DNA of 64,000 nucleotides from Marinilabiliales bacterium (GTDB lineage Bacteria > Bacteroidota > Bacteroidia > Bacteroidales > PUMT01), in the NCBI GenBank assembly GCA_007695015.1, contig REEN01000072.1:1-64000 (forward strand). Reading direction: 5' to 3'. Of this stretch, positions 3,923-46,849 are shown piece after piece. The notes beneath the pieces are model-generated. The model was given only the letters and a program-made list of their open reading frames with translations, was not told the DNA's origin and did not search any database. The number at the start of each line of letters is the position of its first letter. Position 1 is the first letter of the stretch. The position numbers were made by a program, and so were the translations under genes.

Positions 3923-5017
3923 TCAATACTTCTGTGTGATCTCCCTTACAATTGAATTGAACTTCTCAACCTCTTCAAAAACAGGACTGTGAGCGGAGTT
4001 CTCAAAGGTGAAGAATCCTTTTTCCGGCGCTTTCAGCTGATCATAGAAATCTTTTGCAACAGAATACGGGGTTGTAAAATCATACTTTCCGTGGAAAATA
4101 TAGACAGGTACCTGCATGCTGTCGATCTCGTTAAAAAGATTTGTTTGGATCACTTCATTCCACATATGCTCCAGTGAAAACATGCTGCCATTCATGAAAT
4201 TCAGTTTGTCGCCAATTGTGTAATCTCTTGTTTTGAACACAATTCTGATCAATGGCCACATTCCGGTTATATCCCGGGTGGTCCCGCCGCCGAATTTGTT
4301 CACGTATATCCTTTGTTCTGTCATATAATCAATCCACTCTTTGCCGCTGGCATTCAAATCTGGAAAACTTAATCCAGCAAGTGTTTCAGCAGCTTTCTTA
4401 TCATTATGGTTACGGGCCTCCTCTTTTGCCCATTCAAATGAGATTTGCTCTCCAATGAACTGATCCGCTACCTGTCCGATCCCAAAATAGGCCCGATAGA
4501 GCTCAGGATGTTCCCGGGCTGCCAGGATACCCAGTAAGGATCCCCATGAATGGCCCATAATATATATCCTGTCCTGTTTGAATCTTTCTGACAGGTATTC
4601 ACTGAGTTCCCTGGTATCTGAGATAAACTGCCGCATATTCATGCTTTCAACCGGAATATCCCTTGACCAGGACTTGCCCGCCCCGCGTTGTTCCCAGTAC
4701 ACCATAACGAAGTCTTTTTCTATACCAGGATTAAAATGTTTCATGAAGGCAGCTTCCGGACTTCCAGGTCCGCCATGCAGGAAAAGCATTACCGGTTTTG
4801 TTGAATCTGCACCCCTGATAATGAGATACTGATCAAGTCCACCCAGGGAGATCTTCTCAATAACAGAAATGCTGCCCTCCAGCGGGTTTCCGTCAGGGCC
4901 GGTCAGAGGTTCGGGTTTTCCGGGACTGATAATCCATAGTGCAACAAAAAGTCCCAGAACTGTTGCTGAAATTCCTCCAATAATGTAGAGGCTTACTCTG
5001 ATTATTCTTTTTCTCAT
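3923..5017 (-). CDS. Membrane-anchored alpha/beta hydrolase, prolyl aminopeptidase-like (S33)
   Basis: The protein has 364 residues with an N-terminal transmembrane segment (about 8-30). The hydrolase domain shows the S33 oxyanion motif H-G-G-P-G (near residue 80), the E-Q-R-G-A-G-K-S segment, the nucleophile elbow G-H-S-W-G-S (Ser near 156), an acid in F-H-G-K-Y-D and the histidine in N-S-A-H-S near the C-terminus. These are the features of proline iminopeptidase-type enzymes, although many HGGPG proteins act on other amides or esters. The anchor places it at the inner membrane facing the periplasm. It sits mid-operon between another alpha/beta hydrolase and a deacetylase. The exact substrate is unknown. 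Confidence 0.82.
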   Translation of the reverse strand: MRKRIIRVSLYIIGGISATVLGLFVALWIISPGKPEPLTGPDGNPLEGSISVIEKISLGGLDQYLIIRGADSTKPVMLFLHGGPGSPEAAFMKHFNPGIEKDFVMVYWEQRGAGKSWSRDIPVESMNMRQFISDTRELSEYLSERFKQDRIYIMGHSWGSLLGILAAREHPELYRAYFGIGQVADQFIGEQISFEWAKEEARNHNDKKAAETLAGLSFPDLNASGKEWIDYMTEQRIYVNKFGGGTTRDITGMWPLIRIVFKTRDYTIGDKLNFMNGSMFSLEHMWNEVIQTNLFNEIDSMQVPVYIFHGKYDFTTPYSVAKDFYDQLKAPEKGFFTFENSAHSPVFEEVEKFNSIVREITQKY

Positions 5018-5036
5018 TGTTGTTAATTTAATTTAG

Positions 5037-5981
5037 TTATTCCCTTCCCGGGGATGAGTTAAAGTTATCTTCAAGTGTTTTTTTTGAATTTTGCAAAGCC
5101 TCCAGAATGTGATCTCTTAATGCAACAGTATTCAATGCTCCGGTAACATGTCCGTTTTCAATTGTTCTGACAGGATGCCCTTCATAGCTGTTCTTCTGGA
5201 CATCATACTCTATATACCGGTCGTAGGTTGCCAGCAGGGGAATGACATTCCTTGTCCTAACTTTACTGAAATCTTCATGGAAATTCAATAACTGCCTTAT
5301 CTTATCAGGTTGCTGAAAAACGCTATCTGAGGCAAGCTTCCTGTATTTGCTTTTTAAAAACAGTTCGCCCAGAAATGTTCCGGCCAGCAGAGGTACATAT
5401 ACAGTAGATGAATTATAATAACTTCTGTGGAGATTGGTGACCCATCCCCCAAGGCTTATGCCGCATGTGATAACCGGAGCATTACTTATCTCCCTCAGCT
5501 TTTCTATTATGGATTCATTCAGTTTCACAGAAGCTGAGATCATCGCCATGAAATTTACCAGATGCAACATTTTTTGCTGGTACTGTTTAAGGCTGCCATT
5601 ATGAAAAGGAGCTCTTACCGCAATCAGGTTCGCATCGAACCTATCCCGGGCCTTTACAAAGATGTCCATAAAAGAATTTTTCGCTCTTTTACGGTAATCG
5701 AAGGGTCTTTCATTGTTTCCATGATGATAAATGATTGACGGATGATCAATCCCAAGCCATTTCTCAACCCTGAAAGCAGGATCAAGCTCCCCGGCAATCC
5801 TCCTTGTTGCCCGGATTTCATAAGTCCCTTCAGAATTAATCGCAGGAACAGTTAATTCAGTTGACCTGATAAGTTCTTCGAAAGACAAGCTGTCGGTGCT
5901 TTCAGTAAAAAACTTCTTGCTGCCCGAGACCAGTGCACCGATATTTGCGGTTAAATTGTCAATAAGAATGTGTTTGTTCAT
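5037..5981 (-). CDS. Alpha/beta hydrolase of unknown specificity
   Basis: The 314-residue protein has no signal peptide. It shows an oxyanion-type Y-H-H-G-N-N-E (near residue 90), a nucleophile elbow G-I-S-L-G-G-W (Ser near 175), an acid candidate in A-T-Y-D-R-Y and a late E-N-G-H-V-T-G-A that would provide the catalytic His. The order fits a serine alpha/beta hydrolase, but I do not recognise the subfamily. It is the first gene of the minus-strand run that continues into the S33-type hydrolase 19 bases downstream. A shared role in processing an acylated or acetylated envelope substrate is possible but is only inferred from context. Confidence 0.7.
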   Translation of the reverse strand: MNKHILIDNLTANIGALVSGSKKFFTESTDSLSFEELIRSTELTVPAINSEGTYEIRATRRIAGELDPAFRVEKWLGIDHPSIIYHHGNNERPFDYRKRAKNSFMDIFVKARDRFDANLIAVRAPFHNGSLKQYQQKMLHLVNFMAMISASVKLNESIIEKLREISNAPVITCGISLGGWVTNLHRSYYNSSTVYVPLLAGTFLGELFLKSKYRKLASDSVFQQPDKIRQLLNFHEDFSKVRTRNVIPLLATYDRYIEYDVQKNSYEGHPVRTIENGHVTGALNTVALRDHILEALQNSKKTLEDNFNSSPGRE

Positions 5982-32729: not shown

Positions 32730-34943
32730 ATGGATAATCTAAGCAGGGTGGTTGGCAGGCAAGTAATTATGCGAAAATCCGGTTTCGTTATTGTTAAATG
32801 TTTTCTTGCTGCATTTCTGTTACTGGGTCCCATCATAGCAGGCCAGGCTGCCGGACATGTTGAAACTGACCGGCGAAATGCCCTCTTTGGCAGGGATGGT
32901 CTGGAAAGCATCGAACTGGTCAGCGATGAAACTGACCGGTGGGTTGAGTTTCTTGACAGTGGGATGAGGTATATGGTTGAAACCAGTAACCTGCCCAATG
33001 CTGCTATTGCAGTGGTAAAGGATGGCAATATTGTTTTTCTTGAAGGTTATGGTTATGCCGATATTGAGCAGAGCATCCAGGCAGATCCACATGCCAGCCT
33101 TTTCCGCACCGGCTCGGTTGCAAAGATTTTCACGTGGACCGCGGTGATGCAGCTTGCTGAGCAGGGGCTGATCGATCTTGACCGCGATGTTAACGAATAT
33201 CTGGATTTTGAGCTGCCCGGCCTGATATATGGCATGGGCAGGCGTCAGCAGCCACTGCCGGTCACCATGAGGCATTTGTTATCACACACAGCAGGGTTTG
33301 AGGATGTGCTTGAGGGGCTTTTCCTGCTGCAGGAGGAGGATTTCATGCCGCTCAGGGAGTACCTGGTAACCCGAATTCCCGCACGGATATACCCACCTGG
33401 CACCGTGATGGCCTATTCGAACTGGGGCACGGCCCTGGCTGGATATATAGTTGAACGTGTAAGCGGTATCCCTTTCGGGGAATATATCGAGAAGCATATT
33501 TTTGCTCCGCTCGGCATGGAGAACAGCAGTTTCAGCCAGCCGTTGCCTGACCGGCTGGCTGACAGGCTTGTGAAGCCATATCGCCTGGTTGACGGCAGGT
33601 TCACTGGGGGTGGCTTCGAGTATATGCCCTCGCCTGCCGGAGGCCTCAGCACAACCGCTGAGGATATGGCCAGGTTCATGATTGCCCATCTCACAGGTGG
33701 AGGCGCCATCATGGGTGAGGAGAGTGTCAGGCAGATGCATTCCCTCCTGTTTACCCACCACACCCTGCTTGGCGGGATGGCCCACGGGTTCATGGAATAT
33801 ACGAGGAACGGCCACAGGGTGGTATATCACACCGGGAGCTCAATGTTGTATGATGCAGGGTTCTACATGTTACCGGGTACCGGTGCAGGCATTTTCATGG
33901 TTTACAGTGGTGGTGATTTTTCGGGCCACCCTGGGCTCTTCGGCAATTTCATGGGCAGGTTTTTCCCGCCTGAAAGCAGGGCGCACCTGATCGACGACAG
34001 GGATGCTGTACCCGGCACTTTCCCGTCTGCGCCCCTGGCCCTGCCAAACAGTGAACTGGGAGGCGAATACCAGCAGAGCCGCAGGATAGAGACGGGCGGC
34101 GACAAGCTGGTCAACCTCCTGTCGATGGTCATGAGGGTGAGGCCGGAAGGAGAGCGGGAGCTGACAGTAAATTTTCTTGGATCGGATTACAGGTTCATTG
34201 AGACGGAGAGAGGGATATACACAAACCTTGATGGTCCGACGGCCTATCCTCTCGGACCAATGCAGTATATTGTCCTGACCACCGATCCCTTCGGGCGACT
34301 AATGTTGGCAACTGACGGGCCGGTTACCTATATCCGTATGCCGTTCCATACAACAGCAGGTTTTACTATTGTGCTGATCGTTTTTGCAATACTGATGTCC
34401 CTGGGCACGCTTGTATATTTTACCGTGAGGGGCATTGACTCTCTTTTCCGCCGTAAGGCACTAACCGCATCATTAGTCCAGGATGCCGGGCCGGTCAGCC
34501 TGACCCATGACGATGGCCAGTCCGGATCCAAGTCCGGATCCAAGTCCGGATCCCAGTCCGGATCCCAGTCCGGATCCAAGTCCGGATCACAGTCCGGATC
34601 CCAGTCCGGATCCCGGCCGGGAGGAATTTGGGCGAGGCGGTTTATCCTGATCCATGCGTCGCTGTTTTTGCTGATGCTGGTTTCCCTGGCCAATTCCGGC
34701 CGCCCCGATCCTGTTTACCTGCTGCCACTGTCAGCCGCGGGCATCACTTCGCCGTTCACATATCTGGTGGCAATACTGCCCTGGATACTGGCGCCGCTTT
34801 CAATAGCGGTCATTGTCTGGTGTGTAATGGCCTGGAAAAACAGGTGGTTGAAAAAGGCGGGGTTGATCCATTACAGCCTCTATACTTTGTCTGCCGCCGG
34901 CATGACCTGGTTTTTCTGGTTTTACAATTCATTTGGTTTATGA
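32730..34943 (+). CDS. Class C beta-lactamase-like serine hydrolase with C-terminal membrane domain
   Basis: The protein has 737 residues (or 724 from the ATG at 32769, which gives a cleaner signal peptide). The penicillin-binding/beta-lactamase class C fold shows S-V-A-K (Ser near 128), Y-S-N (near 229) and H-T-G (near 367), the three active-site motifs. After the enzyme come a transmembrane helix (about 535-560), a cytoplasmic-looking loop built from eight copies of a four-residue Ser-Gly-Ser-(Lys/Gln/Arg) repeat (about 598-629), and three more helices to the C-terminus. Members are D-amino-acid peptidases or esterases acting in the periplasm. The repeat loop is unusual. The nadA gene follows 142 bases downstream. 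Confidence 0.85.
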   Translation: MDNLSRVVGRQVIMRKSGFVIVKCFLAAFLLLGPIIAGQAAGHVETDRRNALFGRDGLESIELVSDETDRWVEFLDSGMRYMVETSNLPNAAIAVVKDGNIVFLEGYGYADIEQSIQADPHASLFRTGSVAKIFTWTAVMQLAEQGLIDLDRDVNEYLDFELPGLIYGMGRRQQPLPVTMRHLLSHTAGFEDVLEGLFLLQEEDFMPLREYLVTRIPARIYPPGTVMAYSNWGTALAGYIVERVSGIPFGEYIEKHIFAPLGMENSSFSQPLPDRLADRLVKPYRLVDGRFTGGGFEYMPSPAGGLSTTAEDMARFMIAHLTGGGAIMGEESVRQMHSLLFTHHTLLGGMAHGFMEYTRNGHRVVYHTGSSMLYDAGFYMLPGTGAGIFMVYSGGDFSGHPGLFGNFMGRFFPPESRAHLIDDRDAVPGTFPSAPLALPNSELGGEYQQSRRIETGGDKLVNLLSMVMRVRPEGERELTVNFLGSDYRFIETERGIYTNLDGPTAYPLGPMQYIVLTTDPFGRLMLATDGPVTYIRMPFHTTAGFTIVLIVFAILMSLGTLVYFTVRGIDSLFRRKALTASLVQDAGPVSLTHDDGQSGSKSGSKSGSQSGSQSGSKSGSQSGSQSGSRPGGIWARRFILIHASLFLLMLVSLANSGRPDPVYLLPLSAAGITSPFTYLVAILPWILAPLSIAVIVWCVMAWKNRWLKKAGLIHYSLYTLSAAGMTWFFWFYNSFGL
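34521..34616 (+). repeat. 12-bp coding minisatellite, eight units
   Basis: Eight tandem 12-base units of the form TCCGGATCCMAG, differing only at the last few bases (the eighth ends CCGG), lie in frame within the serine hydrolase gene. Each unit encodes four residues, so copy number changes keep the frame. Confidence 0.9.
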
Positions 34944-36038: not shown

Positions 36039-37904
36039 ATGGTAAGATTTAAATACTGGCCCTGTGGACTATGGAGCAGGCCCGTTTCATCTTTTACGGG
36101 GCGCCTGGCTTCTGCCTTACGGGAATTCACCGGGGGCCGCATTGTTAGTCCCCGTCAGTTTTTTATCGCCCTTGCTGTTGCCGCAATGATCACAGGCGGG
36201 TGCGGCAGCGCTGAGGCCCCGGCTATCGAACTGAGGTATGAGGAGAACCAGGGCCTGGAATACCATGAGGTTATTGAGGCATATGAAGAGCTTGCCGGGT
36301 ATTACAGGCAGGCTGCCCTTTTTGAGATGGGGAGTACTGATGTTGGCCGCCCGCTGCACCTGTTCATGATATCGGCCGACGGCGATTTTGACCCCGTGTC
36401 GGTCAGGCGCAAGGGTCGCGCAATAGTGCTGGTGAACAACGGTATTCATGCCGGTGAGCCTGCAGGGATCGATGCAAGCCTTGAATATGCGGCCAATGTG
36501 CTTGCAGGCCGTGACGGGATGGACAGGGTGCTTGGCAATACTGTAATCGCTATTATTCCTGTATACAACATCGGCGGTTCTCTGAACAGGAGCCGCTACC
36601 ACAGGATGAACCAGGACGGGCCCGAATACAAGGGGGCAAGGCGCAATGCCAGGAACCTCGACCTGAACAGGGATTTTGCAAAGATGGATTCTGAAAACGC
36701 TAGGTCTTTCGCCCGGATTTTCCATTATCTCGATCCCGATGTGTTTGTCGACACCCACACAACCAACGGTGCTGACCACCAGAGTGTCATGACCCTTATT
36801 GCCACGATGCACCAGAAGCTGCCGGCCGGGATGGGGGAGTTCTTCAATGAAAAGATGGTGCCTGAGCTCTACCGGCGTATGAACAGTGAGACGCCCTACG
36901 GGATGGTGCCATACCTGCAGCTGGTTGACAGGAGCGATATACGCAAAGGAATTACAGGGTTCAATGACCATCCCTTCTACTCTACGGGGTATGCCTCGCT
37001 GTTCAACTGTTTCGCGTTCATGACCGAGACGCTCGTTTACAAACCCTTCCCCGAAAGGGTAAAAGCGACATATGAGTTTATCAGGTTCCTGGTTGAATTC
37101 ACCTCCGGCAACTCAGGTGAGATCATTGGCCTGAGAAGGGATGCTGCCTTATATACCCGGGGTAAAACCGAGTATGTGGTCGACTGGCGGGTGGACCGCC
37201 AAAGGTATGACCGGATACTGTTCTGGGGATACGAGACCGGTGAGGCTGCCGCGCCCCTTTCGGGAAGGAGGGTTACAATCTATGATCATGACAGGAAATG
37301 GACAGATACGATACCATTTTATAACTATTTTTCACCTGCCGTGACAATCACTGCACCTGAGGCATATATCGTGCCGCAGGCCTGGGGCGGGGTTATTGAA
37401 CGACTGTACATAAACGGGGTTGATATCCGGTTTTTTGACAGGGATACCGTAATTAACGTCGAGACACTGTACATTGATGAATTTGAGACAGGCAGCCGTC
37501 CGAACCAGGGCCGGCACCTGGTAACGGTTACCGGCAAGAGGAGGGAGCTGACTCCCAGGCAGTTCTACCGGGGAGATGCATATATAAGGGTCAACCAGGA
37601 TGCCAACAACTACATCGTACACATGCTTGAGCCGTCGGCTCCGGCCTCTTTCCTGCGGTGGGGATTCTTTACTTCAGCCCTGGAGCCGGGCGAGTTTTTC
37701 TGGATATGGAGTTTTGAGGATCATGCCCATGGACTGTTGCAAAGTGACCGGGCGTTGCGTGAAGCGCTGGAGGAGAGGGAAGCGGGCGATCCGGATTTTG
37801 CGGCTGATCACGCGGCCCGTTTGCAGTTTCTGTACGACATGGTTGCCGGCCAGGCGACAGAGAGGGGCGCGAATCTCTACCCCGTGGCAAGGGTGCTGAG
37901 ATAG
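36039..37904 (+). CDS. M14-family zinc carboxypeptidase lipoprotein
   Basis: The 621-residue protein has a hydrophobic signal with lipobox I-T-G-G-C (Cys near 54) after an unusually long basic N-terminal stretch of about 36 residues; the true start may be later, but no ATG is available before the signal. The peptidase_M14 domain shows G-I-H-A-G-E-P-A-G (zinc His and Glu near 136 and 139), N-L-D-L-N-R-D (substrate Arg region), D-T-H-T-T-N-G (third zinc ligand near 238) and T-E-T-L-V (catalytic Glu near 329). The C-terminal 230 residues are beta-rich and of unknown role. It is likely a periplasmic or surface peptidase. It starts 29 bases after nadA. Confidence 0.85.
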   Translation: MVRFKYWPCGLWSRPVSSFTGRLASALREFTGGRIVSPRQFFIALAVAAMITGGCGSAEAPAIELRYEENQGLEYHEVIEAYEELAGYYRQAALFEMGSTDVGRPLHLFMISADGDFDPVSVRRKGRAIVLVNNGIHAGEPAGIDASLEYAANVLAGRDGMDRVLGNTVIAIIPVYNIGGSLNRSRYHRMNQDGPEYKGARRNARNLDLNRDFAKMDSENARSFARIFHYLDPDVFVDTHTTNGADHQSVMTLIATMHQKLPAGMGEFFNEKMVPELYRRMNSETPYGMVPYLQLVDRSDIRKGITGFNDHPFYSTGYASLFNCFAFMTETLVYKPFPERVKATYEFIRFLVEFTSGNSGEIIGLRRDAALYTRGKTEYVVDWRVDRQRYDRILFWGYETGEAAAPLSGRRVTIYDHDRKWTDTIPFYNYFSPAVTITAPEAYIVPQAWGGVIERLYINGVDIRFFDRDTVINVETLYIDEFETGSRPNQGRHLVTVTGKRRELTPRQFYRGDAYIRVNQDANNYIVHMLEPSAPASFLRWGFFTSALEPGEFFWIWSFEDHAHGLLQSDRALREALEEREAGDPDFAADHAARLQFLYDMVAGQATERGANLYPVARVLR

Positions 37905-37917
37905 GCAATGCATTGCC
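37904..37917. repeat. 14-bp perfect palindrome GGCAATGCATTGCC
   Basis: It lies just after the stop of the M14 gene. A near copy (GGCAATACATTGC) follows at 37969-37981 and an imperfect one at 46737-46750, the other end of the metal-receptor cluster. Confidence 0.6.
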
Positions 37918-38193
37918 GTGTTGAACATAAGACACCGGTTCACCGGACAGGGGGTTCAGGACTTGCAAGGCAATACATTGCTTTGCCGGGCGTTAATAAA
38001 ATGGTTTACGTATATTGAACCAAAGTGTGTATGCATTGTTTATTGCTCAGTAAAAATGGATTAAATATTCCGGTCCCGGGCAGCGGCTTATAAACAGTGT
38101 TTAGTAATTTCGCCGCAGACACCGGGTTATAATAATGGAATAGGATTATATTATTAAGTGGCAGATAATCAAACGCCAACGAATTGAAATATT

Positions 38194-38547
38194 ATGAAGG
38201 GGCTGCTCTCATTTCTTCTTATAGCTACAACGATGGCACTGTTCTGGAACAACGCTGTTAACTGGCACTACCATCAGCTTCCCAACGGAATTGTAGTCGA
38301 GCATGCCCATCCCTACAATAAATCTGCTTCTTCGCCAGGCAACCCTTTTGAGAAGCATCACCATAGCGACTTTGAATACCTGATCCTTGACCTGGTTTAT
38401 CACGGGACCCTGATTATTCTGATGGTGGTGCTGACACTGATGGTCTACCGGCAGCTGCTGACACACACCACTCTCAATAAACTGCCGGAAAGGGTATACA
38501 GCGGGTATTATAACCTTCCCCTGCTTCGTGGTCCTCCCCGTCTTTAA
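38194..38547 (+). CDS. Small His-rich membrane protein, copy 1
   Basis: The 117-residue protein has an N-terminal hydrophobic segment (residues 3-20), then W-H-Y-H-Q-L-P-N-G-I-V-V-E-H-A-H-P (24-40), an H-H-H cluster near 55, a second helix (about 72-88) and a tail with L-P-L-L-R-G-P-P. Twelve histidines in 117 residues, many as H-x-H, suggest metal binding in the periplasm. I recognise no named family. It is the first gene of a module with a ZnuD-like TonB receptor 159 bases downstream, and a diverged copy of the pair follows. Metal capture or sensing linked to the receptor is inferred from context. Confidence 0.75.
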   Translation: MKGLLSFLLIATTMALFWNNAVNWHYHQLPNGIVVEHAHPYNKSASSPGNPFEKHHHSDFEYLILDLVYHGTLIILMVVLTLMVYRQLLTHTTLNKLPERVYSGYYNLPLLRGPPRL

Positions 38548-38706
38548 ACACACCTCTCCTGCCGGGGTTCTGATATGATCCTGCCCGGGCTTGCCGGGTT
38601 TGGCTGTCAGCCGCAATACGGAAAAACTGTGCATGAGGATCCCGGTCGCCGTCGGAAATTAACCGGCTCCGTTTAACAATGTCCAACCAACAATTGAAAA
38701 TTATAT

Positions 38707-40935
38707 ATGAGAACAATATTGATTGTATTCACAGCATTTGCTGTATCACTTGTCAGTCTTGGCGCCACAGAAGATGACCATACCGATGCCAACGTATTCG
38801 GACATGTTGTAAGCGCCGGGGATGGGGAGCACATACCCTTTATAAACGTTTTAATTGAGGGAACGAGGATCGGTACCATAACTGATGCCTCCGGTCACTA
38901 CATACTCACTAATCTGCCTGAAGGTAGACACACCCTGGTTGTCAGGGGCATGGGTTATGAGCCTGCCTCGGTTGAATTTGAGATCAGGGCCAACCAGACA
39001 CTTGAAGTGGATGTAGAGGTATACTACAGGGGAATTGATCTGGAGGAGATCATTGTAACCGCTTCGCCCACTGCCAGCGGCTTCAGATACCAGCCTGACA
39101 TGGCCTATACTGGTGAAATGCTGCAGAAGCGTACCGAAGTCTCTTTCGGTGAAATGCTTAATCACTCACCCGGCATTGCCATGAGATCGCTCGGGTCGTC
39201 GCCTGCCCGTCCTGTTATAAGGGGTATGGACGGCGACAGAATTCTGTTGCTTGAAAACGGCGAGAGAATGGGTGATATTTCTGAAACATCGGCCGATCAC
39301 TCCATTGCACTTGACCCGCTTGTGGCTAGCAGGGTAGAGGTGGTGCGCGGACCGGCAAGCCTGCTGTACGGATCGAGCGCGCTTGGCGGGGTCATCAACC
39401 TTATGACCACCGATATACCCGACAGGTGGGATCCCGGATCGTCGGGAGTGGTTTCACTGCAAGGGGCCACCATGAACAGGATGGGCGCCGGCTTTGGAAG
39501 GTATACCTGGGGTAACGACGACTTTGCCTTTACCGGAAGAATTGCCCACAGGCAGTCGTCAGACATTAGGACACCCGATGGCGTTTTACCGGGCACCTCG
39601 ATGAACAATTACGACGGGTCCCTTGGTTTAGGGTTTGACCGGGGGGGGCGTGCGGGAGGCTTGAGCCTTTCAATGGCAAACCAGACCTATGAGATACCTG
39701 AGAATATTGACGACCCTGATGAGGGGGTTGAAATAAGGATGCAGCGGCAGGCTCTCCAGGGCCGTATGGGCTTTGTGAATGACGGCTTTATGGACAGGGG
39801 CCAGATCAGGTTCAATGCCAGCCGCATGTTCCAGCAGGAGATTGAGTATGAGTGGGAGGACGGGGTTGTTGATGAGGATGTTGAACTGGAATATGAGAAA
39901 TATGCTTTCAGCTCCACCCTTACAATGCAGCATAAACCTTTCGAATTTTTCGACAGGGGCGCTGTCGGGGTTAATCTGCACGGCCACAGGATGGATGTGG
40001 GTGGTGATGAGGCCTATACCCCGGGAGAGATGCGCTTTAATCTTGGTGTTTTCACCTTCCAGGAGATACCCCTTTCGTCAAAAATGAGACTGCAGGCAGG
40101 GCTGAGAATTGATTACCAGCATACAGGAGCTCTTTCGAATGAATTTTTCCCCGATATCAGCGCAAGGAGAAATGCAGTCAATTACAGCGGTTCGATAGGA
40201 TTCAATCACAGGCCTCTTGATGAACTGGAGATTGGCGGACAGTTTGCACGTTCGCACAGGAACCCCTCAGTTGAGGAGCTGTATGCCGACGGTCCCCATC
40301 TTGGCGCCGGTGTTTACGAGATTGGAAACAGCAATATCAAGGATGAGGTGGGACAGGGAGCCGACCTGTTCATCAGGTGGGATGATGGCATTTTTGACAT
40401 TGAGCTGGCAGGATTTGTCAACCACTTCATGAACTACATTATTTTCGAGCCTACGGGTGATGTCGATCCTGCATCGGGGTTCCCGGTTTTTCGATATAAT
40501 GGCGATGAGGCAAGGCTCATGGGATTCGAACTTTCCGGTTCTGTTCGGCTTCATGATAATGTGCAACTGGGAGTCGGAGCCGATTATGTTGACGGGCGCC
40601 GCTTTGCAAACGGGACGGAATACCTGCCGTTTATCCCGCCATTCAGGTTTATGGCAGATTTGGAGTATGATTTCGGGCAGGGATGGATAGGCGGCAGACT
40701 GGTATCGGCTGCAAGCCAGGGCAGGGTTGCCCCTGAGGAAGAGGAGACTGATGGTTATACTCTGCTTGGTTTTACCGCGGGATACCGACTGACCGGTCCC
40801 GGACGGCATGTAATTATACTCAGGGTTGACAACATACTGGATCAGAGGTACCGTGATCACCTGTCGCGCGTTGCCGAAAGGAATTTTCCCATGCCGGGAA
40901 GAAACTTCACACTGGCGTACAGGCTCTTCTTCTGA
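38707..40935 (+). CDS. ZnuD-like TonB-dependent receptor, copy 1
   Basis: The protein has 742 residues. A signal peptide (about 1-19) is followed by a CarboxypepD_reg-like domain (about 28-110), a plug (about 118-240) and a barrel ending L-A-Y-R-L-F-F. The plug matches the zinc receptor ZnuD pattern: A-R-P-V-I-R-G-M-D-G-D-R-I near 160, then N-G-E-R-M-G-D, S-A-D-H-S-I-A-L-D-P-L, R-V-E-V-V-R-G-P-A-S-L-L-Y-G-S and G-G-V-I-N-L. An acidic barrel loop (near 375-400) is built of Glu/Asp with V, Y and L. ZnuD-type receptors import zinc or haem; together with the upstream His-rich protein, zinc or another divalent metal is the likely cargo. The copy at 41660 is its paralog. Confidence 0.85.
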   Translation: MRTILIVFTAFAVSLVSLGATEDDHTDANVFGHVVSAGDGEHIPFINVLIEGTRIGTITDASGHYILTNLPEGRHTLVVRGMGYEPASVEFEIRANQTLEVDVEVYYRGIDLEEIIVTASPTASGFRYQPDMAYTGEMLQKRTEVSFGEMLNHSPGIAMRSLGSSPARPVIRGMDGDRILLLENGERMGDISETSADHSIALDPLVASRVEVVRGPASLLYGSSALGGVINLMTTDIPDRWDPGSSGVVSLQGATMNRMGAGFGRYTWGNDDFAFTGRIAHRQSSDIRTPDGVLPGTSMNNYDGSLGLGFDRGGRAGGLSLSMANQTYEIPENIDDPDEGVEIRMQRQALQGRMGFVNDGFMDRGQIRFNASRMFQQEIEYEWEDGVVDEDVELEYEKYAFSSTLTMQHKPFEFFDRGAVGVNLHGHRMDVGGDEAYTPGEMRFNLGVFTFQEIPLSSKMRLQAGLRIDYQHTGALSNEFFPDISARRNAVNYSGSIGFNHRPLDELEIGGQFARSHRNPSVEELYADGPHLGAGVYEIGNSNIKDEVGQGADLFIRWDDGIFDIELAGFVNHFMNYIIFEPTGDVDPASGFPVFRYNGDEARLMGFELSGSVRLHDNVQLGVGADYVDGRRFANGTEYLPFIPPFRFMADLEYDFGQGWIGGRLVSAASQGRVAPEEEETDGYTLLGFTAGYRLTGPGRHVIILRVDNILDQRYRDHLSRVAERNFPMPGRNFTLAYRLFF

Positions 40936-41050
40936 GATTGCCACGGTTACAAAATCCGGGATAGCCTTTTATCCGGTTTTATTGATCTCCGGAGCCTGAT
41001 GTTTTGATTCAGCACGGTAGTTTAGAATTGCAATAAATAAGCTTTTTTTG

Positions 41051-41083
41051 AAGAGCAATTTCCACGAGGGATTGCTCTTTTTA
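41051..41083. terminator. Rho-independent terminator between the two receptor modules
   Basis: A 9-base stem, AAGAGCAAT (41051-41059) with ATTGCTCTT (41071-41079), surrounds an 11-base loop and is followed by T residues. It ends the first module, 115 bases after the receptor stop. Confidence 0.8.
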
Positions 41084-41117
41084 TTGTTAAATTAATATAA
41101 TTACCCTCTTTTAGGTA

Positions 41118-41148
41118 TTGGCAGGGTGAAATTCCTGAATTACTTTTG
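41118..41148 (+). promoter_or_regulatory. Bacteroidota-type promoter for the second module
   Basis: TTG (41118-41120), 20 bases, then TACTTTTG (41141-41148), fitting TAnnTTTG. The ATG at 41185 lies 36 bases further. Preceded by a terminator, it shows that the second module has its own transcript. Confidence 0.6.
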
Positions 41149-41184
41149 CCGGTACAAGAAAAAATGTAATTCTTTTTCAAGATA

Positions 41185-41532
41185 ATGATCAAAAAAGGGC
41201 TTACACTGCTGATGATCCTGCCGCTAGGTTTCGTGTTGTTCAACAACACGGTGAACCGCCATCAGCACCAGTTGCCCAATGGCATGATCATAGAACATTC
41301 CCATCCCTTCAGTTCGTGCTGCAGTGAAGGTAAGAATCATGAGCACAGTGACCTTGAACTTTTACTGTTCACCCTTTTATGTGATTCTACGGTTACTGAT
41401 GATGGATGTGCATATACCTCAGGTTTTATCGCAGGATATGCTTCTGACCTTAAATCCGGATATGTATTTGTACCACAGTCATTCGGACTACTCCGATGCT
41501 GCCCACTCAGGGCCCCTCCCCTGAATTCCTAA
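41185..41532 (+). CDS. Small His-rich membrane protein, copy 2
   Basis: The 115-residue protein is a diverged paralog of the protein at 38194. It shares the N-terminal hydrophobic segment, the core R-H-Q-H-Q-L-P-N-G-M-I-I-E-H-S-H-P (about 25-41), a following H-E-H-S-D-L-E and the C-terminal tail C-P-L-R-A-P-P. It differs by a C-C pair after the core, a further C-C near the end, and a middle segment that is less hydrophobic than the second helix of copy 1. The added cysteines could shift metal preference. Its own promoter and terminator frame it and the TonB receptor starts 127 bases downstream. A frame at 41324-41524 overlaps but lacks the conserved tail. Confidence 0.72.
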   Translation: MIKKGLTLLMILPLGFVLFNNTVNRHQHQLPNGMIIEHSHPFSSCCSEGKNHEHSDLELLLFTLLCDSTVTDDGCAYTSGFIAGYASDLKSGYVFVPQSFGLLRCCPLRAPPLNS

Positions 41533-41659
41533 CCGGAAACAGATTGCCGGATCTCTTTTCTTACCGGCAGTCAAATTGCACACCAACATATTTCTGCAGG
41601 AGGATCAGGTACGGATAAGTGATACCTGTTAACCAACCAACAATTTACATTAATTCAGG

Positions 41660-43894
41660 ATGAGAACAATTTCAATATCAGCAATATTGCTTTTTATTTT
41701 CAATGTTTTATTATGCTTTCCGCACTTTGATGGCTTTCCTTCGGGTGACGGTGTTGTACGCGGTAAAGTAACTACAAAGGGTGAGGGTGATATTGTACCT
41801 TTTATAAATATCGTGGTTGAAGGAACCAGGATAGGTGCTTTCAGTGATGCCACAGGTAATTTTAAGATATCAAACGTTCCCGGTGGGGATAATACCCTTG
41901 TGGTGAAGGGTATGGGTTTTGAAGTGGCAAGAATATATTTCAGTCTGGACGAGGGAGAGGAGATCGAACTCGATATTGAGGTCGAATACCGTGGTATTGA
42001 CCTTGAGGAGATAGTGGTCACATCTTCACCTACTGCACGTGGTTTCAGGTACCAGCCTGATAATGTATATCTTGGAGAGGAGCTGCAGAAGCGTGCCGAA
42101 ACATCATTCGGTGAGATGCTTGACGGCGAGCCGGGCATCGCCATGAGGTCTATGGGGCCGACGCCAAGCCGGCCGGTGATTCGTGGACTTGATGGTGACC
42201 GCATTCTGATACTTCAGAATGGTGAGCGTATGGGCGATGTTTCAGAAACCTCTGCAGGGCATGCCATATCCCTTGACCCACTGTCAGCTAACAGGGTTGA
42301 AGTTGTGCGCGGACCTGCAAGCCTTCTGTACGGGTCGAGTGCTATCGGGGGAGTGATAAACCTGATGACGGCCGATATTCCTGATGGATGGGATCAGGGA
42401 GGATCGGGAGTTGTTTCGGCGCAGGGAGCTTCCAACAACAATATGGGAGCCGGATTTGGACGGTATACATGGGGCGCAGAGAACTGGGCCGCCAGCGGCC
42501 GTTTCGGCTACCGTAAGTCGGGCGATGTAAGGTCGCCCGAAGGGGTTATCCCCAGCACCTACATGAATAACTATGACGGTTCCCTTGGTTTTGGCTTTAA
42601 CAACGGCAATACTAACGGGGGGGTCAACTTCGGCATGGGCAGGAATACATATGGTATTCCCGAAGAACTTGACGATCCTTTCGAGAGTGTGGAGGTGCGC
42701 ATCAGGCAGCAGCTTATGCAGGGGCGGCTGCATTTCAGGGTAAGTGATTTCTTTGACAGGGCCCAGCTCAGGATCCACGGCTCAAGGTTCGTACAACAGG
42801 AGATTGAGATTGAGATCGAGGATGGATATATTGAAGAAGACATTGAAATTGAGTTTGACAAGCTGAATGTAAGTTCTACACTGACGCTTCAGCACCGGCC
42901 TGTCGGGATATTCGACAGGGGAGCATTCGGTCTCAGTCTTTCCGGAAGGCAGATGGATGTGAGCGGCGATGATGCATTCACACCCAACGAAGAGAGATAT
43001 AATATCGGATTTTTTACTTTCCAGGAGGTGCCAGTTACGACCCGTATACGTCTGCAGTTTGGAGGGCGTCTGGACTTCCTCAGGGCGACCGCCCTTCCCA
43101 ATGATTTTTCCGATATGAGTGAAAGCAGGGATGCATTTGTCTATTCAGGGTCGGCGGGAATGAACTACCGGCCTGCCGAAACTGTTGAGATCGGCGGCCA
43201 GCTTGCAAGGTCGCACCGTTATCCCATGCTGGAGGAGCTGTTCGCCCATGGCCCTCATCTTTGTGCCGGACTGTACGAGATCGGTAGCATTAACCTTGAC
43301 GATGAGATCGGGTACGGAACTGACCTGTTCGCGCGGTGGGGCAATGGTGTGATAAGTGCTGAGGTGGCAGGCTTCTGGAATTATTTCTCCAACTTCATAA
43401 TCATGCAACCGACAGGTGAAACAGATGAAGGATCGGGACTGCCGGTTGTTGAGTACCAGGGAGACCGGGCACGGCTGTATGGAGGTGAGGCTTCGGTATC
43501 GTGGAATGTGACTGGCGGACTGAGAACTGTTATGAGTATTGACTACGTTAATGGTAGGCGTACAGGCAGCGAAAATCATTATCTGCCGTTCATGCCTCCT
43601 TTCAGGTTCTCGGGAACGGCTGAATATGACTTTGGCAGCGGATGGATCGGCTCACGGGTGCGTGCCGTATCGGCGCAAAACTCTGTGGCTCCCGATGAGG
43701 AGGCTACCGAAGGTTACGTGCTGTTGGGGATGAATGTTGGCTACAGGCTTAACGGAGGAGGACAGCATGTTATAATTCTCAGGGTTGAAAACCTTCTCAA
43801 TGTAAGCTACAGGGATCATCTTACCAGGATAGAGGAGAGAAACTTTCCCATGCCCGGGAGGAACTTCAACCTGGCTTACCGCTGGTTCTTCTGA
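41660..43894 (+). CDS. ZnuD-like TonB-dependent receptor, copy 2
   Basis: The 744-residue protein is a paralog of the receptor at 38707 along its whole length. It has a signal peptide, a CarboxypepD_reg-like domain (about 30-115), a plug with S-R-P-V-I-R-G-L-D-G-D-R-I and S-A-G-H-A-I-S-L-D-P-L (where copy 1 has S-A-D-H-S-I), then R-G-P-A-S-L-L-Y-G-S and a barrel ending L-A-Y-R-W-F-F. The acidic loop is present and even more regular (alternating Glu and Ile with Asp). The plug D-H to G-H change may alter affinity. It works with the His-rich protein encoded upstream, presumably under a separate promoter, as an outer-membrane metal importer. Confidence 0.85.
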   Translation: MRTISISAILLFIFNVLLCFPHFDGFPSGDGVVRGKVTTKGEGDIVPFINIVVEGTRIGAFSDATGNFKISNVPGGDNTLVVKGMGFEVARIYFSLDEGEEIELDIEVEYRGIDLEEIVVTSSPTARGFRYQPDNVYLGEELQKRAETSFGEMLDGEPGIAMRSMGPTPSRPVIRGLDGDRILILQNGERMGDVSETSAGHAISLDPLSANRVEVVRGPASLLYGSSAIGGVINLMTADIPDGWDQGGSGVVSAQGASNNNMGAGFGRYTWGAENWAASGRFGYRKSGDVRSPEGVIPSTYMNNYDGSLGFGFNNGNTNGGVNFGMGRNTYGIPEELDDPFESVEVRIRQQLMQGRLHFRVSDFFDRAQLRIHGSRFVQQEIEIEIEDGYIEEDIEIEFDKLNVSSTLTLQHRPVGIFDRGAFGLSLSGRQMDVSGDDAFTPNEERYNIGFFTFQEVPVTTRIRLQFGGRLDFLRATALPNDFSDMSESRDAFVYSGSAGMNYRPAETVEIGGQLARSHRYPMLEELFAHGPHLCAGLYEIGSINLDDEIGYGTDLFARWGNGVISAEVAGFWNYFSNFIIMQPTGETDEGSGLPVVEYQGDRARLYGGEASVSWNVTGGLRTVMSIDYVNGRRTGSENHYLPFMPPFRFSGTAEYDFGSGWIGSRVRAVSAQNSVAPDEEATEGYVLLGMNVGYRLNGGGQHVIILRVENLLNVSYRDHLTRIEERNFPMPGRNFNLAYRWFF

Positions 43895-43930
43895 TTTAAT
43901 CGTAATACCGGGTCTTATTGCGAAAGGCTT

Positions 43931-43966
43931 ACCGGTTTGTGGTATACACATGCACAACAAACCGGT
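43931..43966. repeat. 10-bp inverted repeat after the second receptor
   Basis: ACCGGTTTGT (43931-43940) and ACAAACCGGT (43957-43966) surround 16 bases. It lies 37 bases after the receptor stop and could end the transcript, though the T content behind it is modest. Confidence 0.5.
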
Positions 43967-44088
43967 TGTTGCCTATCTGTGTTATCCTTATTCTGGTCCC
44001 CGTTCAAAGGGTGTCAAATGTTCTGAACTAACACCCGCCTACTATATCCGGCTATATCTCCGGTCAGAATCACTAAAATAAGGTATTG

Positions 44089-44116
44089 TTGTACCTGGAT
44101 AAGGAATATATTTTTG
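44089..44116 (+). promoter_or_regulatory. Bacteroidota-type promoter for the FecA-like receptor
   Basis: TTG (44089-44091), 17 bases, then TATTTTTG (44109-44116), 25 bases ahead of the ATG at 44142. It gives the third receptor its own transcript. Confidence 0.6.
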
Positions 44117-44141
44117 TGCCTGTAATTAAATCATAATCGAA

Positions 44142-46691
44142 ATGAGGATATTAAAATTAAAAAGTTTTTTACTGGCTGTTATGCCGGTTGTAATGACGGG
44201 CACAGTTCTGCCGCCGGTTAATCCGGAACAAAGCCCCGGGTTTTATGCTGAAGGGATGACCAGCATATTGGATATCAGAAAAGGCGAAGAGGAATACAGC
44301 TCGCATCTTTATGGGAGGGTTATGGCCGGAGATGAGGGCGCCCCTTTTGTAACAGTTTATCTTAAAGGAACATCGTACGGCACTTCTACCGATGCAGACG
44401 GATATTTCATGCTTGTGAACCTGCCGCCGGGCAAACATACGGTCCGGGTTCAGGGGATCGGTTACAGAGGCGCAGAGAAGGTTGTTGAAGTCGGCGAAAA
44501 CGAAACATCCGAACTTGTATTTGAAATTGAGCAGGATGTTCTGCTTATGGAGCAGGTTGTTGTTTCGGGCAGCCGCATCGGGTTGCTTCAGCATCTTCCC
44601 GGATCAGCAGGCACGGTTGCCAACAATGATCTGAAAGCTATTGCACCCCTGACCGGGAATGAGGTGCTGAGAACGGTAACCGGCCTGCATGTTGTTGAGG
44701 AGGAGGGAGCCGGGTTGCGTGCAAATATAGGGGTACGGGGATTAGACCCTGACAAAAGCCGGAACGTACTGATGCTTGAGGACGGGATACCTGTTGCACT
44801 TGGACCTTACGGGGAACCAGAGATGTATTATACTCCGTCCATTGACAGGATGAGCGGCATAGAGGTTCTGAAGGGGAGCGGGTCTATTTTATACGGTCCG
44901 CAAACTATCGGTGGTGTGATAAACTATATCACAGCCGATCCTCCGGCTGAGAGCACAGGTTATGCACGAATAAGCGGCGGACAGGGTGGTTATTACAGCG
45001 GATTGGCCGGTTATGGTAATACATACGGTAATACCGGATTCCAGGTAAACTATCTCAGAAGGCAGGCCGAAAACCTGGGACCCACTCAATTTGTGCTGAA
45101 CGATATCAATGGCAAGCTTAGATTCAGCTCCTCGCCAAGGTCTGCCGCAACCCTTAAAATTGGTGTTTATGATGAGGTTTCCAATTCGACTTATGTTGGA
45201 CTTACACAGGCCATGTTTGAAACTGGCGGCAATGATCATGTGCGGCTTGCTCCGCACGACAACCTCGAAGTAAGGAGATATTCAATGAGCCTGAGCCACA
45301 GGTTCTCACTAAGTGACGATCTGCAGTTCAACACAACCGCCTACGGCTATACCACAACACGGAACTGGCGCAGGCAGGATTTCACATATGATGGTGGTTC
45401 TTCCGGTCTAACCGGAGAGGTGTGGGGTGACAATACCCTTCCCGGCGGCATGATATTTTTAAGGAACAGCACAGGTAACAGGAACAGGCAGTTTGAGGTT
45501 GCAGGGATTGAGAACAGGACAAGATTTAATTACTCCCTGAAGGGGTTGAGAAGCATCCTTGATGCAGGTGCGCGTCTGCATTACGAGAGGGCATATGAAC
45601 AAAGGGTCAACGGCACAAGTGCAACAGCGGTTTCGGGCAACCTCAGGGATGATGAGATACGTACGGGACATGCATTCAGCACCTGGGTACAGAACAAAGC
45701 CTTTCTCAGTGACAGGGTTTCGGTCACGGCCGGAATACGCACCGAGATGCTGAACTACGAGAGGGATATCCTCAGGGCCAGTTTTGAAGATGTGGCCATT
45801 GTGAACAATACCTTTGTTGCTGAGCTGATTCCAGGTGCCGGAATAAACTACAATTTCAATCGGCAGAACGGGGTTTTTGCCGGTATACACAGGGGATTTG
45901 CTCCGCCAAGGATCAAGGATGCCATAAGCAGTTCGGGCGAAGATATGCTGCTGGATGCTGAAAAGAGCTGGAACATTGAAGCTGGGGCACGGACAGGTTT
46001 TGAAAATGTGGTCAGGTTTGAGGCTACACTATTTCTAATGGATTTCTCAAACCAGGTTATACCGGTGTCAGAATCTTCGGGAGGCCGGGGAGCCGGGTAT
46101 ATCAATGCAGGCCGGACCAGCCACAGGGGGGCTGAGGGCGATGTCATCCTTAATGTTTCACAATTGACCGGTCTGCCGGGCGATCTTACGGCAGCTGTAA
46201 ATGCAACATTTACCCGTTCGGTATTCTCTGACGACAGATTTGTGGTGGAGCGGATTGCAAACGGACCGCTGAATAATACTGTCATGGTAAATGTGAAAGG
46301 TAACAGGACCCCTTATTCACCGGCGGTAAATGCTTCAGGATACCTGCAGTACACGAGCCAAACCGGTTTTGGCGTAAGGGTAGGGGGACAGTTCACGGGG
46401 AGCCAGTATACCGACGTGCTCAATACCGGTTGTGTTGGCGACTGGATTGAAAGGGCCGGTGCTGATCCTGATTACAATTACCTCCAGGCAACTGCCAACG
46501 GCCGTATCGGGCAGATACCGTCATTTTTCGTAATGAATTTATCGGCGTGGTATGACCTTCCTGGCGGACTGAATTTTAACCTTACCATAAAGAACCTGCT
46601 TAATGAAAGATATATAGCATCAAGAAGGCCGCAGGGTATAAGGGTAGGGCTGCCGAGGATGTTTAACGCAGGAATGTCATTGAGCTTCTGA
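44142..46691 (+). CDS. FecA-like TonB-dependent siderophore receptor
   Basis: The protein has 849 residues. A signal peptide is followed by a longer N-terminal stretch, a CarboxypepD_reg-like domain (about 53-125) and a plug (about 140-260) with I-G-V-R-G-L-D-P-D-K-S-R-N and E-V-L-K-G-S-G-S-I-L-Y-G-P-Q-T-I-G-G-V-I-N-Y. The barrel contains T-T-T-R-N-W-R-R-Q-D-F (near 405), a segment I associate with ferric dicitrate receptors (FecA), and ends M-F-N-A-G-M-S-L-S-F. It differs from the two receptors upstream and is not a recent duplicate of them. No FecR/sigma pair is nearby. Iron-carboxylate import is likely, with specificity uncertain. Confidence 0.85.
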   Translation: MRILKLKSFLLAVMPVVMTGTVLPPVNPEQSPGFYAEGMTSILDIRKGEEEYSSHLYGRVMAGDEGAPFVTVYLKGTSYGTSTDADGYFMLVNLPPGKHTVRVQGIGYRGAEKVVEVGENETSELVFEIEQDVLLMEQVVVSGSRIGLLQHLPGSAGTVANNDLKAIAPLTGNEVLRTVTGLHVVEEEGAGLRANIGVRGLDPDKSRNVLMLEDGIPVALGPYGEPEMYYTPSIDRMSGIEVLKGSGSILYGPQTIGGVINYITADPPAESTGYARISGGQGGYYSGLAGYGNTYGNTGFQVNYLRRQAENLGPTQFVLNDINGKLRFSSSPRSAATLKIGVYDEVSNSTYVGLTQAMFETGGNDHVRLAPHDNLEVRRYSMSLSHRFSLSDDLQFNTTAYGYTTTRNWRRQDFTYDGGSSGLTGEVWGDNTLPGGMIFLRNSTGNRNRQFEVAGIENRTRFNYSLKGLRSILDAGARLHYERAYEQRVNGTSATAVSGNLRDDEIRTGHAFSTWVQNKAFLSDRVSVTAGIRTEMLNYERDILRASFEDVAIVNNTFVAELIPGAGINYNFNRQNGVFAGIHRGFAPPRIKDAISSSGEDMLLDAEKSWNIEAGARTGFENVVRFEATLFLMDFSNQVIPVSESSGGRGAGYINAGRTSHRGAEGDVILNVSQLTGLPGDLTAAVNATFTRSVFSDDRFVVERIANGPLNNTVMVNVKGNRTPYSPAVNASGYLQYTSQTGFGVRVGGQFTGSQYTDVLNTGCVGDWIERAGADPDYNYLQATANGRIGQIPSFFVMNLSAWYDLPGGLNFNLTIKNLLNERYIASRRPQGIRVGLPRMFNAGMSLSF

Positions 46692-46849
46692 AAGGTTGCT
46701 GGCCCGGCAGGCTATCTTTAATTCCGCGTCCTTCGCGGCAATGTGTTGCCGGTATTCTGTTAGTAATGAGTGTGTGCTGAAAAAAGCCGTCTGTTAACTC
46801 CTGACAGACTTTTGCCTGGAAGGGTTATACCTGACAGGTAGCGCTGATA

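Follow-up and report, generated by a model that had tools for sequence, protein, structure and literature searches.

Small His-rich proteins encoded ahead of two ZnuD-like TonB receptors are probably metal-sensing arrest peptides in a Marinilabiliales bacterium

In a Marinilabiliales bacterium, a 64,000-nucleotide stretch of contig REEN01000072.1 (the window) carries two tandem modules, each consisting of a small His-rich ORF (P1 or P2) and the gene of a ZnuD-like TonB receptor (R1 or R2). Judging by analogy with known leader peptides, P1 and P2 most likely act as built-in sensors of metal rather than as its carriers, each switching its receptor gene by a stall in the synthesis of the small protein itself. 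The tandem arrangement had been predicted from the DNA, and all five predicted ORFs, including that of a third receptor (R3), were found in place. The features of the locus are as follows.

38194–38547, + strand: P1, the module-1 leader ORF, 117 aa (ORF; AlphaFold2 model; homologues in relatives).
38266–38313, + strand: His core of P1, HYHQLPNGIVVEHAHP (H25, H27, G32, H37, H39, and H55 invariant in alignment A1).
38356–38364, + strand: second HxH of P1 (HHH).
38527–38538, + strand: RGPP arrest-motif codons of P1 (P114 and P115 invariant and R112 at least 90% in A1).
38548–38706, + strand: P1-R1 intergenic leader, 159 nt (not conserved among congeners; fold z about 0.1–0.25).
38707–40935, + strand: R1, ZnuD-like TonB receptor, 742 aa, ligand state D-H ... 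H-x-G (profile, structure, and alignment comparisons).
41050–41080, + strand: intrinsic terminator between the modules (13-bp stem, 5-nt loop, T-tail).
41100–41119, + strand: dyad ATTACC-N8-GGTATT upstream of module 2, a candidate operator (conserved; single genome copy).
41118–41148, + strand: Bacteroidota-type promoter of module 2, TTG-20-TACTTTTG (9/9 match).
41185–41532, + strand: P2, the module-2 leader ORF, 115 aa, with Cys-Cys in the His loop (ORF; orthologues at module 2 in 12 congeners).
41260–41307, + strand: His core of P2, HQHQLPNGMIIEHSHP (ORF translation, alignment).
41509–41520, + strand: RAPP arrest-motif codons of P2 (ORF translation, alignment).
41533–41659, + strand: P2-R2 intergenic leader, 127 nt (stable fold, z −3.1; not conserved in the genus).
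41660–43894, + strand: R2, ZnuD-like TonB receptor, 744 aa, ligand state G-H ... H-x-C (profile, structure, alignment, tree).
44142–46691, + strand: R3, siderophore/FecA-like TonB receptor, 849 aa (family-level match only; adjacency kept in several congeners).

To characterize the small proteins, their sequences and a structural model were analyzed. Both have a hydrophobic N terminus and a Pro-Pro pair 2 (P1) or 3 (P2) residues before the end, and the core HxHQLPNGxxxEHxHP, which had been described as shared, is present in both. In the AlphaFold2 model of P1 (mean pLDDT 80), helices span residues 2–22 and 59–94, strands span residues 24–28 and 34–38, and the tail is loose; the strands form a β-hairpin in which H25 and H27 lie opposite H37 and H39. 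Structure comparison of the model with the PDB gave no significant match. P1 contains no Cys, whereas P2 has an adjacent CC in the loop. The description of both as small His-rich membrane proteins holds, with the refinement that the second hydrophobic segment of P2 is weak (mean KD 1.0 versus 2.3 in P1). Neither protein was assigned to a family by Pfam and NCBIfam profiles, in agreement with the original prediction. Matches of P1 and P2 to the HypB prefix (E 0.0007 and 0.013) were rejected as due to His-rich composition. DUF6769 (PF20558), matched by 2/38 relatives (best E 7e-6), and DUF2946 (the CruR family), matched by 1/38 relatives at E 0.096, were also rejected, neither being matched by P1 or P2. 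In one relative (L085, 6694–7425), a repetitive acidic insertion of approximately 100 residues separates the His core from the second HxH, and the tail is kept.

Besides the His core, the C terminus is conserved. An "LRxPP-type" tail had been noted; it is present (LRGPP in P1, LRAPP in P2) but is better read as R[A/G]PP, since both RAPP and RGPP have been proven to arrest ribosomes (PMC12992588, PMC10951233). The family was searched for in 85,000 genomes with a DNA pattern that covered the His core and left out the C-terminal tail. At least 118 stretches were obtained; among the matches listed, 107 family ORFs were read, and 106 were scorable. A RAPP-like tail was found no more than 18 residues from the stop codon in all 106 scorable relatives among the matches listed: RGPP in 49, RAPP in 45, RPPP and RSPP in 4 each, HAPP in 3, and KSPP in 1, so that R[AGSP]PP accounted for 102/106. 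None of 217 neighbouring proteins carried such a tail, the single null match being itself a family member (Fisher p about 1e-80 for family versus neighbours, the relatives not being independent). The motif and the His residues are the most conserved parts of the protein, and the stretch preceding the motif is the least conserved: the approximately 25 residues before the tail reach 0.5–1.1 bits per column, compared with 4.3 for R, 3.0 for A/G, and 4.3 for each P. Alignment A2 consists of tail-bearing members; A1, assembled without regard to the tail, gave the same conservation pattern. Furthermore, the second HxH and the R were 53–61 residues apart (quartiles 54–57) in the scorable family members listed across the phylum, and the distance from the end of the second helix to the R had a median of 24 residues.

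Next, the distribution of the leader and its neighbouring genes was analyzed. Homologues of the small proteins were present in 47/149 relatives, and a profile search of the phylum, in which 15 candidates per genome were scored, found a member in at least 14/297 genomes. The order P1-R1-P2-R2 occurs in nine congeners (L047–L055), often with R3 next, and fragments of it occur in three more; because both modules recur throughout the genus, the tandem arrangement is not due to chance. Outside the genus, the two receptor types lie at separate sites, each with its own leader (L056 and L057 in G047; L059 and L085 in G015), indicating that the duplication either predates the genus or occurred repeatedly.

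Repeated pairing with receptors had been named beforehand as the test of the association, and it was observed. Among the matches listed, 107 members were examined, 7 of which lay at contig ends; in the 100 readable loci listed, the leader was directly followed by a TonB receptor gene in 88, by a zinc-type ABC importer operon in 4 (ZnuA in three of them, E 1e-41 to 1e-45; an AztB-like permease in the fourth), by an OEP-HlyD-RND efflux operon (CzcA/CusA) in 3, by a di-haem peroxidase gene in 2 (the second, L181, judged from its likeness to L178 in size and leader), by a hemerythrin-like gene in 1, and by an unknown gene or none in 2. Three further leaders in the 149-relative set precede CusA/CzcA pumps (L064, L086, and L088). 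From the receptor side, the small gene was present ahead of 11/12 close R1/R2-type receptors with readable upstream sequence; the exception is an additional, third R1-type receptor of G012 (L251), for which the available sequence contains no leader ORF. A leader is likewise missing ahead of a more distant receptor (L255, 42% identity). In the host genome, which encodes one FUR-family regulator, the ZnuA operon has no leader. The proposed tie to ZnuD receptors is thus retained for this locus, where ZnuD is the nearest named relative of R1 and R2, but not in general, since the partners elsewhere are mostly other TonB branches. The varied downstream partners show that the leader is a cassette placed ahead of metal-transport genes and not a ZnuD subunit, and its occurrence ahead of unrelated transporters fits a regulatory cassette. 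Its anatomy, universal tail, fixed spacing, and position directly ahead of metal-transport genes are observed features of the family.

Two observations were made at these loci. In three zinc ABC operons, a protein of 440–458 aa is encoded between the leader ORF and ZnuA (L203, 5416–6738; L104, 6205–7557; L121, 4443–5819). It has no Pfam family, nor an NCBIfam family in the case of L203, whose protein has an N-terminal hydrophobic stretch and, judged by eye, a possible outer-membrane barrel. On a Fibrella plasmid (L241, about 4930–5220), the leader ORF is unannotated and a 'hypothetical protein' has been called antisense to it, with a di-haem peroxidase gene downstream.

R1 and R2 were compared with known receptors. 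Both contain CarboxypepD-reg-like, plug, and barrel domains (Pfam), and the predicted plug pattern R-P-V-I-R-G-x-D-G was confirmed as RPVIRGMDGD in R1 and RPVIRGLDGD in R2. The best NCBIfam match of both is ZnuD (NF038289; 199.6 and 206.9 bits, the curated cut-off of 950 not being reached), and the best PDB match is ZnuD 4RDR (E 3e-32 and 2e-34; 115 and 122 bits), the next-best match of R1 being ShuA at 77 bits. In the alignment to 4RDR, Asp-99, His-100, and His-499, the ligands of the high-affinity ZnuD site, are all kept in R1. In R2, His-100 and His-499 are kept, Gly occupies the position of Asp-99, and a Cys lies two residues after His-499, where R1-type receptors, with Asp at position 99, have Gly. 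Modules 1 and 2 are not copies of each other: the loss of the Asp ligand, the gain of a Cys beside the His, and the gain of Cys in the leader suggest that they have diverged in metal tuning.

This difference recurs in the family. A Cys was found in the leader His loop for 14/17 Gly-type receptors compared with 1/26 Asp-type receptors (Fisher p 1e-7, not corrected for descent), with L053, L054, L061, and L129 among the exceptions. In the receptor tree, T_L085 (Asp-type, with a Cys-free leader) lies beside T_L059 (Cys-type, with a CC leader) within the Cys clade, a placement that needs at least two ligand switches. From the paired changes and the repeated switches, sensor and receptor seem to change together; this co-change rests on few independent events and is the least secure part of the analysis. 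Zinc had been suggested as the cargo, and it is the likeliest metal for module 1 given the ZnuA-operon partners and the ZnuD-type ligand residues of R1. Zinc as the sole cargo was not accepted as proven, the partners including a di-haem peroxidase, a hemerythrin, and also efflux systems. With its altered ligands, module 2 may differ from module 1 in the metal it serves and may be tuned to another, or softer, one.

The regulatory regions were then analyzed. A terminator and a separate promoter had been placed between the modules, and both were confirmed. The module-2 promoter is conserved in most module-2 orthologues, with 8–9 of 9 matches in 12/12 orthologues scanned and a varying distance to the ORF; the promoter scan found no TTG/TAnnTTTG-type promoter for module 1. 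The dyad, like the promoter, is strongly conserved ahead of module 2 in congeners and is possibly a local operator for a regulator; its single copy in the host genome led us to reject a regulon-wide operator. No conserved attenuator or stem-loop was found in the P1-R1 or P2-R2 spacer, even within the genus. Since the spacer RNA is not conserved in the genus and the P1-R1 spacer has no unusual fold, no CutF-type stem-loop can be claimed. The host genome encodes Rho, and C-over-G bubbles are present; the bubbles were rejected as proof of Rho loading, being explained by His/Pro codons. The assignment of the third receptor as FecA-like holds at family level, but its place in the series is less certain: R3 has a promoter-like site of its own (44086–44116, a perfect 9/9 match to the Bacteroidota type) and may be a separate transcription unit, probably outside the leader-receptor pair. 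Elsewhere in the window, short GSKSGSQ repeats at about 34500–34610 form a low-complexity linker in a β-lactamase-like serine hydrolase (ORF 32730–34943), followed by its last membrane segments.

Taken together, we consider it likely, with good though not full confidence, that P1 and P2 are His-hairpin metal-sensing arrest peptides, that is, regulatory upstream ORFs that would control their receptor in cis with the same sign as CruR. We infer the stalling, the metal binding, and the direction of control by analogy, and the metal identity from context. The nascent chain would be inserted in the inner membrane, with the His β-hairpin (HxH facing HxH, plus the second HxH, and the Cys residues in P2) exposed outside the cytoplasm. 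The second helix would leave the ribosome while the unconserved tail of approximately 24 residues occupies the exit tunnel, and the ribosome would stall on reaching R-A/G-P-P. Metal on the hairpin may alter the force on the chain or its folding and hence the dwell time at the end of the leader ORF, which would in turn determine transcription or translation of the downstream receptor. When metal is scarce, the arrest would be stable and the receptor made; when metal is bound, the arrest would be released and the receptor switched off. Several findings count against metal-sensing arrest: the same sensor stands ahead of uptake and efflux genes, which require opposite signs; the spacer RNA is unconserved; the di-haem peroxidase and hemerythrin partners speak against zinc as a universal signal; and the second hydrophobic segment of P2 is weak.

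The original prediction was that the small protein hands metal to the receptor or senses it for the receptor. Of the two, sensing is favoured and hand-off is not. A finished protein acting as a membrane-anchored chaperone or buffer that takes metal from the receptor would agree with a His-rich hairpin between two helices and with the strict neighbourhood with receptors, yet we regard it as unlikely: such a protein does not need the arrest motif, which is the best conserved C-terminal feature; its partners would have to vary among ZnuD-like and other TonB receptors, efflux pumps, and ABC importers; and the segment from helix to tail is unconserved. CutF, too, was first taken for a chaperone and later proved to be a leader (discussion of PMC9426467; PMC9973294).

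Arrest itself could serve another purpose, because RAPP arrest peptides of the secretion-monitoring kind exist (PMC10951233, PMC10987492), and the distance of approximately 24 residues from the second helix to the R suits insertion sensing. An arrest peptide devoted to monitoring secretion or membrane insertion, in the manner of SecM, MifM, and ApdP, is nevertheless quite improbable in light of the invariant His core and the metal-transport partners; no sec or yidC gene was seen downstream of the leaders. The mature protein might also sense metal in trans, for example as the partner of a membrane regulator at the receptor promoter. A membrane protein with two helices and a metal site on the outside would suit such a role, and a transcription factor may act at the dyad ahead of module 2 as well, but no regulator gene was found beside the modules, and trans sensing, which does not account for the R[A/G]PP tail found throughout the family, is very improbable.

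Within metal-sensing arrest, a more specific scenario is doubtful but conceivable: Bacteroidota would possess zinc-sensing arrest peptides with an external His β-hairpin, and in the tandem locus sensor and receptor would have jointly switched metal preference, a His-only leader going with an Asp/His receptor and a Cys-bearing leader with a Cys-bearing receptor. A single bacterium would then own two uptake lines, each tuned in translation to its own metal. So far, the control of metal genes through a stalling nascent chain is established for copper alone, in two proteobacteria. If true, a His-only and probably zinc-responsive version ahead of TonB receptors, zinc ABC importers, and heavy-metal pumps would bring a second metal and the Bacteroidota within the reach of this mechanism and would assign a role to a group of small 'hypothetical' genes; the paired ligand changes open metal specificity to direct testing. 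Leaders of this kind are already known from CruR and CutF, and RAPP/RGPP upstream ORFs ahead of TonB receptors have been noted across Gram-negatives (PMC12992588). A literature search, which covered the main texts of the CruR, CutF, and RAPP papers, found no report of a His-only leader with ZnuD-like receptors, of a zinc signal, or of the paired ligand switch. According to the CruR authors, neither copper nor zinc has a known riboswitch (PMC9426467).

The receptors and leaders were compared with known systems. ZnuD of Neisseria meningitidis (4RDR; PMC4557270) is the nearest solved relative of R1 and R2, which have an extra N-terminal domain and score far under the curated ZnuD level. ApdA, ApdP, and ApcA (PMC7897499, PMC10951233) resemble P1 and P2 in carrying R-A/G-P-P near the C terminus of a small membrane-targeted leader; unlike P1 and P2, they precede sec/yidC genes, monitor secretion, and have no His core.

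CutF of Rhodobacter binds copper outside the membrane, which delays export and opens a stem-loop, and CutF-like proteins are common in Bacteroidota (PMC9973294). P1 and P2 share the rules of that group: fewer than 150 aa, an N-terminal hydrophobic segment, Pro-Pro within the last 15 residues, a metal-ligand motif, and a same-strand transporter gene within 1 kb (gaps of 159 and 127 nt). The stem-loop of CutF hides the start of the next gene until a stalled ribosome opens it, whereas no conserved stem-loop was found here; the His-only CutF-like clusters 14 and 17 neighbour HupE/UreJ (Ni/Co), whereas the present His-only leaders precede ZnuD-like or other TonB receptors.

CruR of Bordetella pertussis (bp2923, DUF2946; before BfrG/CrtA; PMC9426467, PMC12914433) is, like P1 and P2, a small exported leader with a metal-ligand motif and a C-terminal RAPP, followed by a long spacer (162 nt, compared with 159 and 127 nt) and a TonB-dependent transporter gene. 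Without copper, arrest at RAPP allows expression of the transporter gene behind it; copper on the CXXC relieves the arrest, and Rho then ends transcription (PMC9426467). The RAPP arrest has been demonstrated in vitro (PMC12992588). CruR senses copper through the Cys residues of its CXXC, whereas P1 and P2 have a His-hairpin, no CXXC, no DUF2946 match, and a second helix. Copper and the Rho mechanism have been demonstrated for CruR, whereas for P1 and P2 zinc is likelier. P1 and P2 hold every anatomical element of a CruR/CutF-type leader, with a different sensor.
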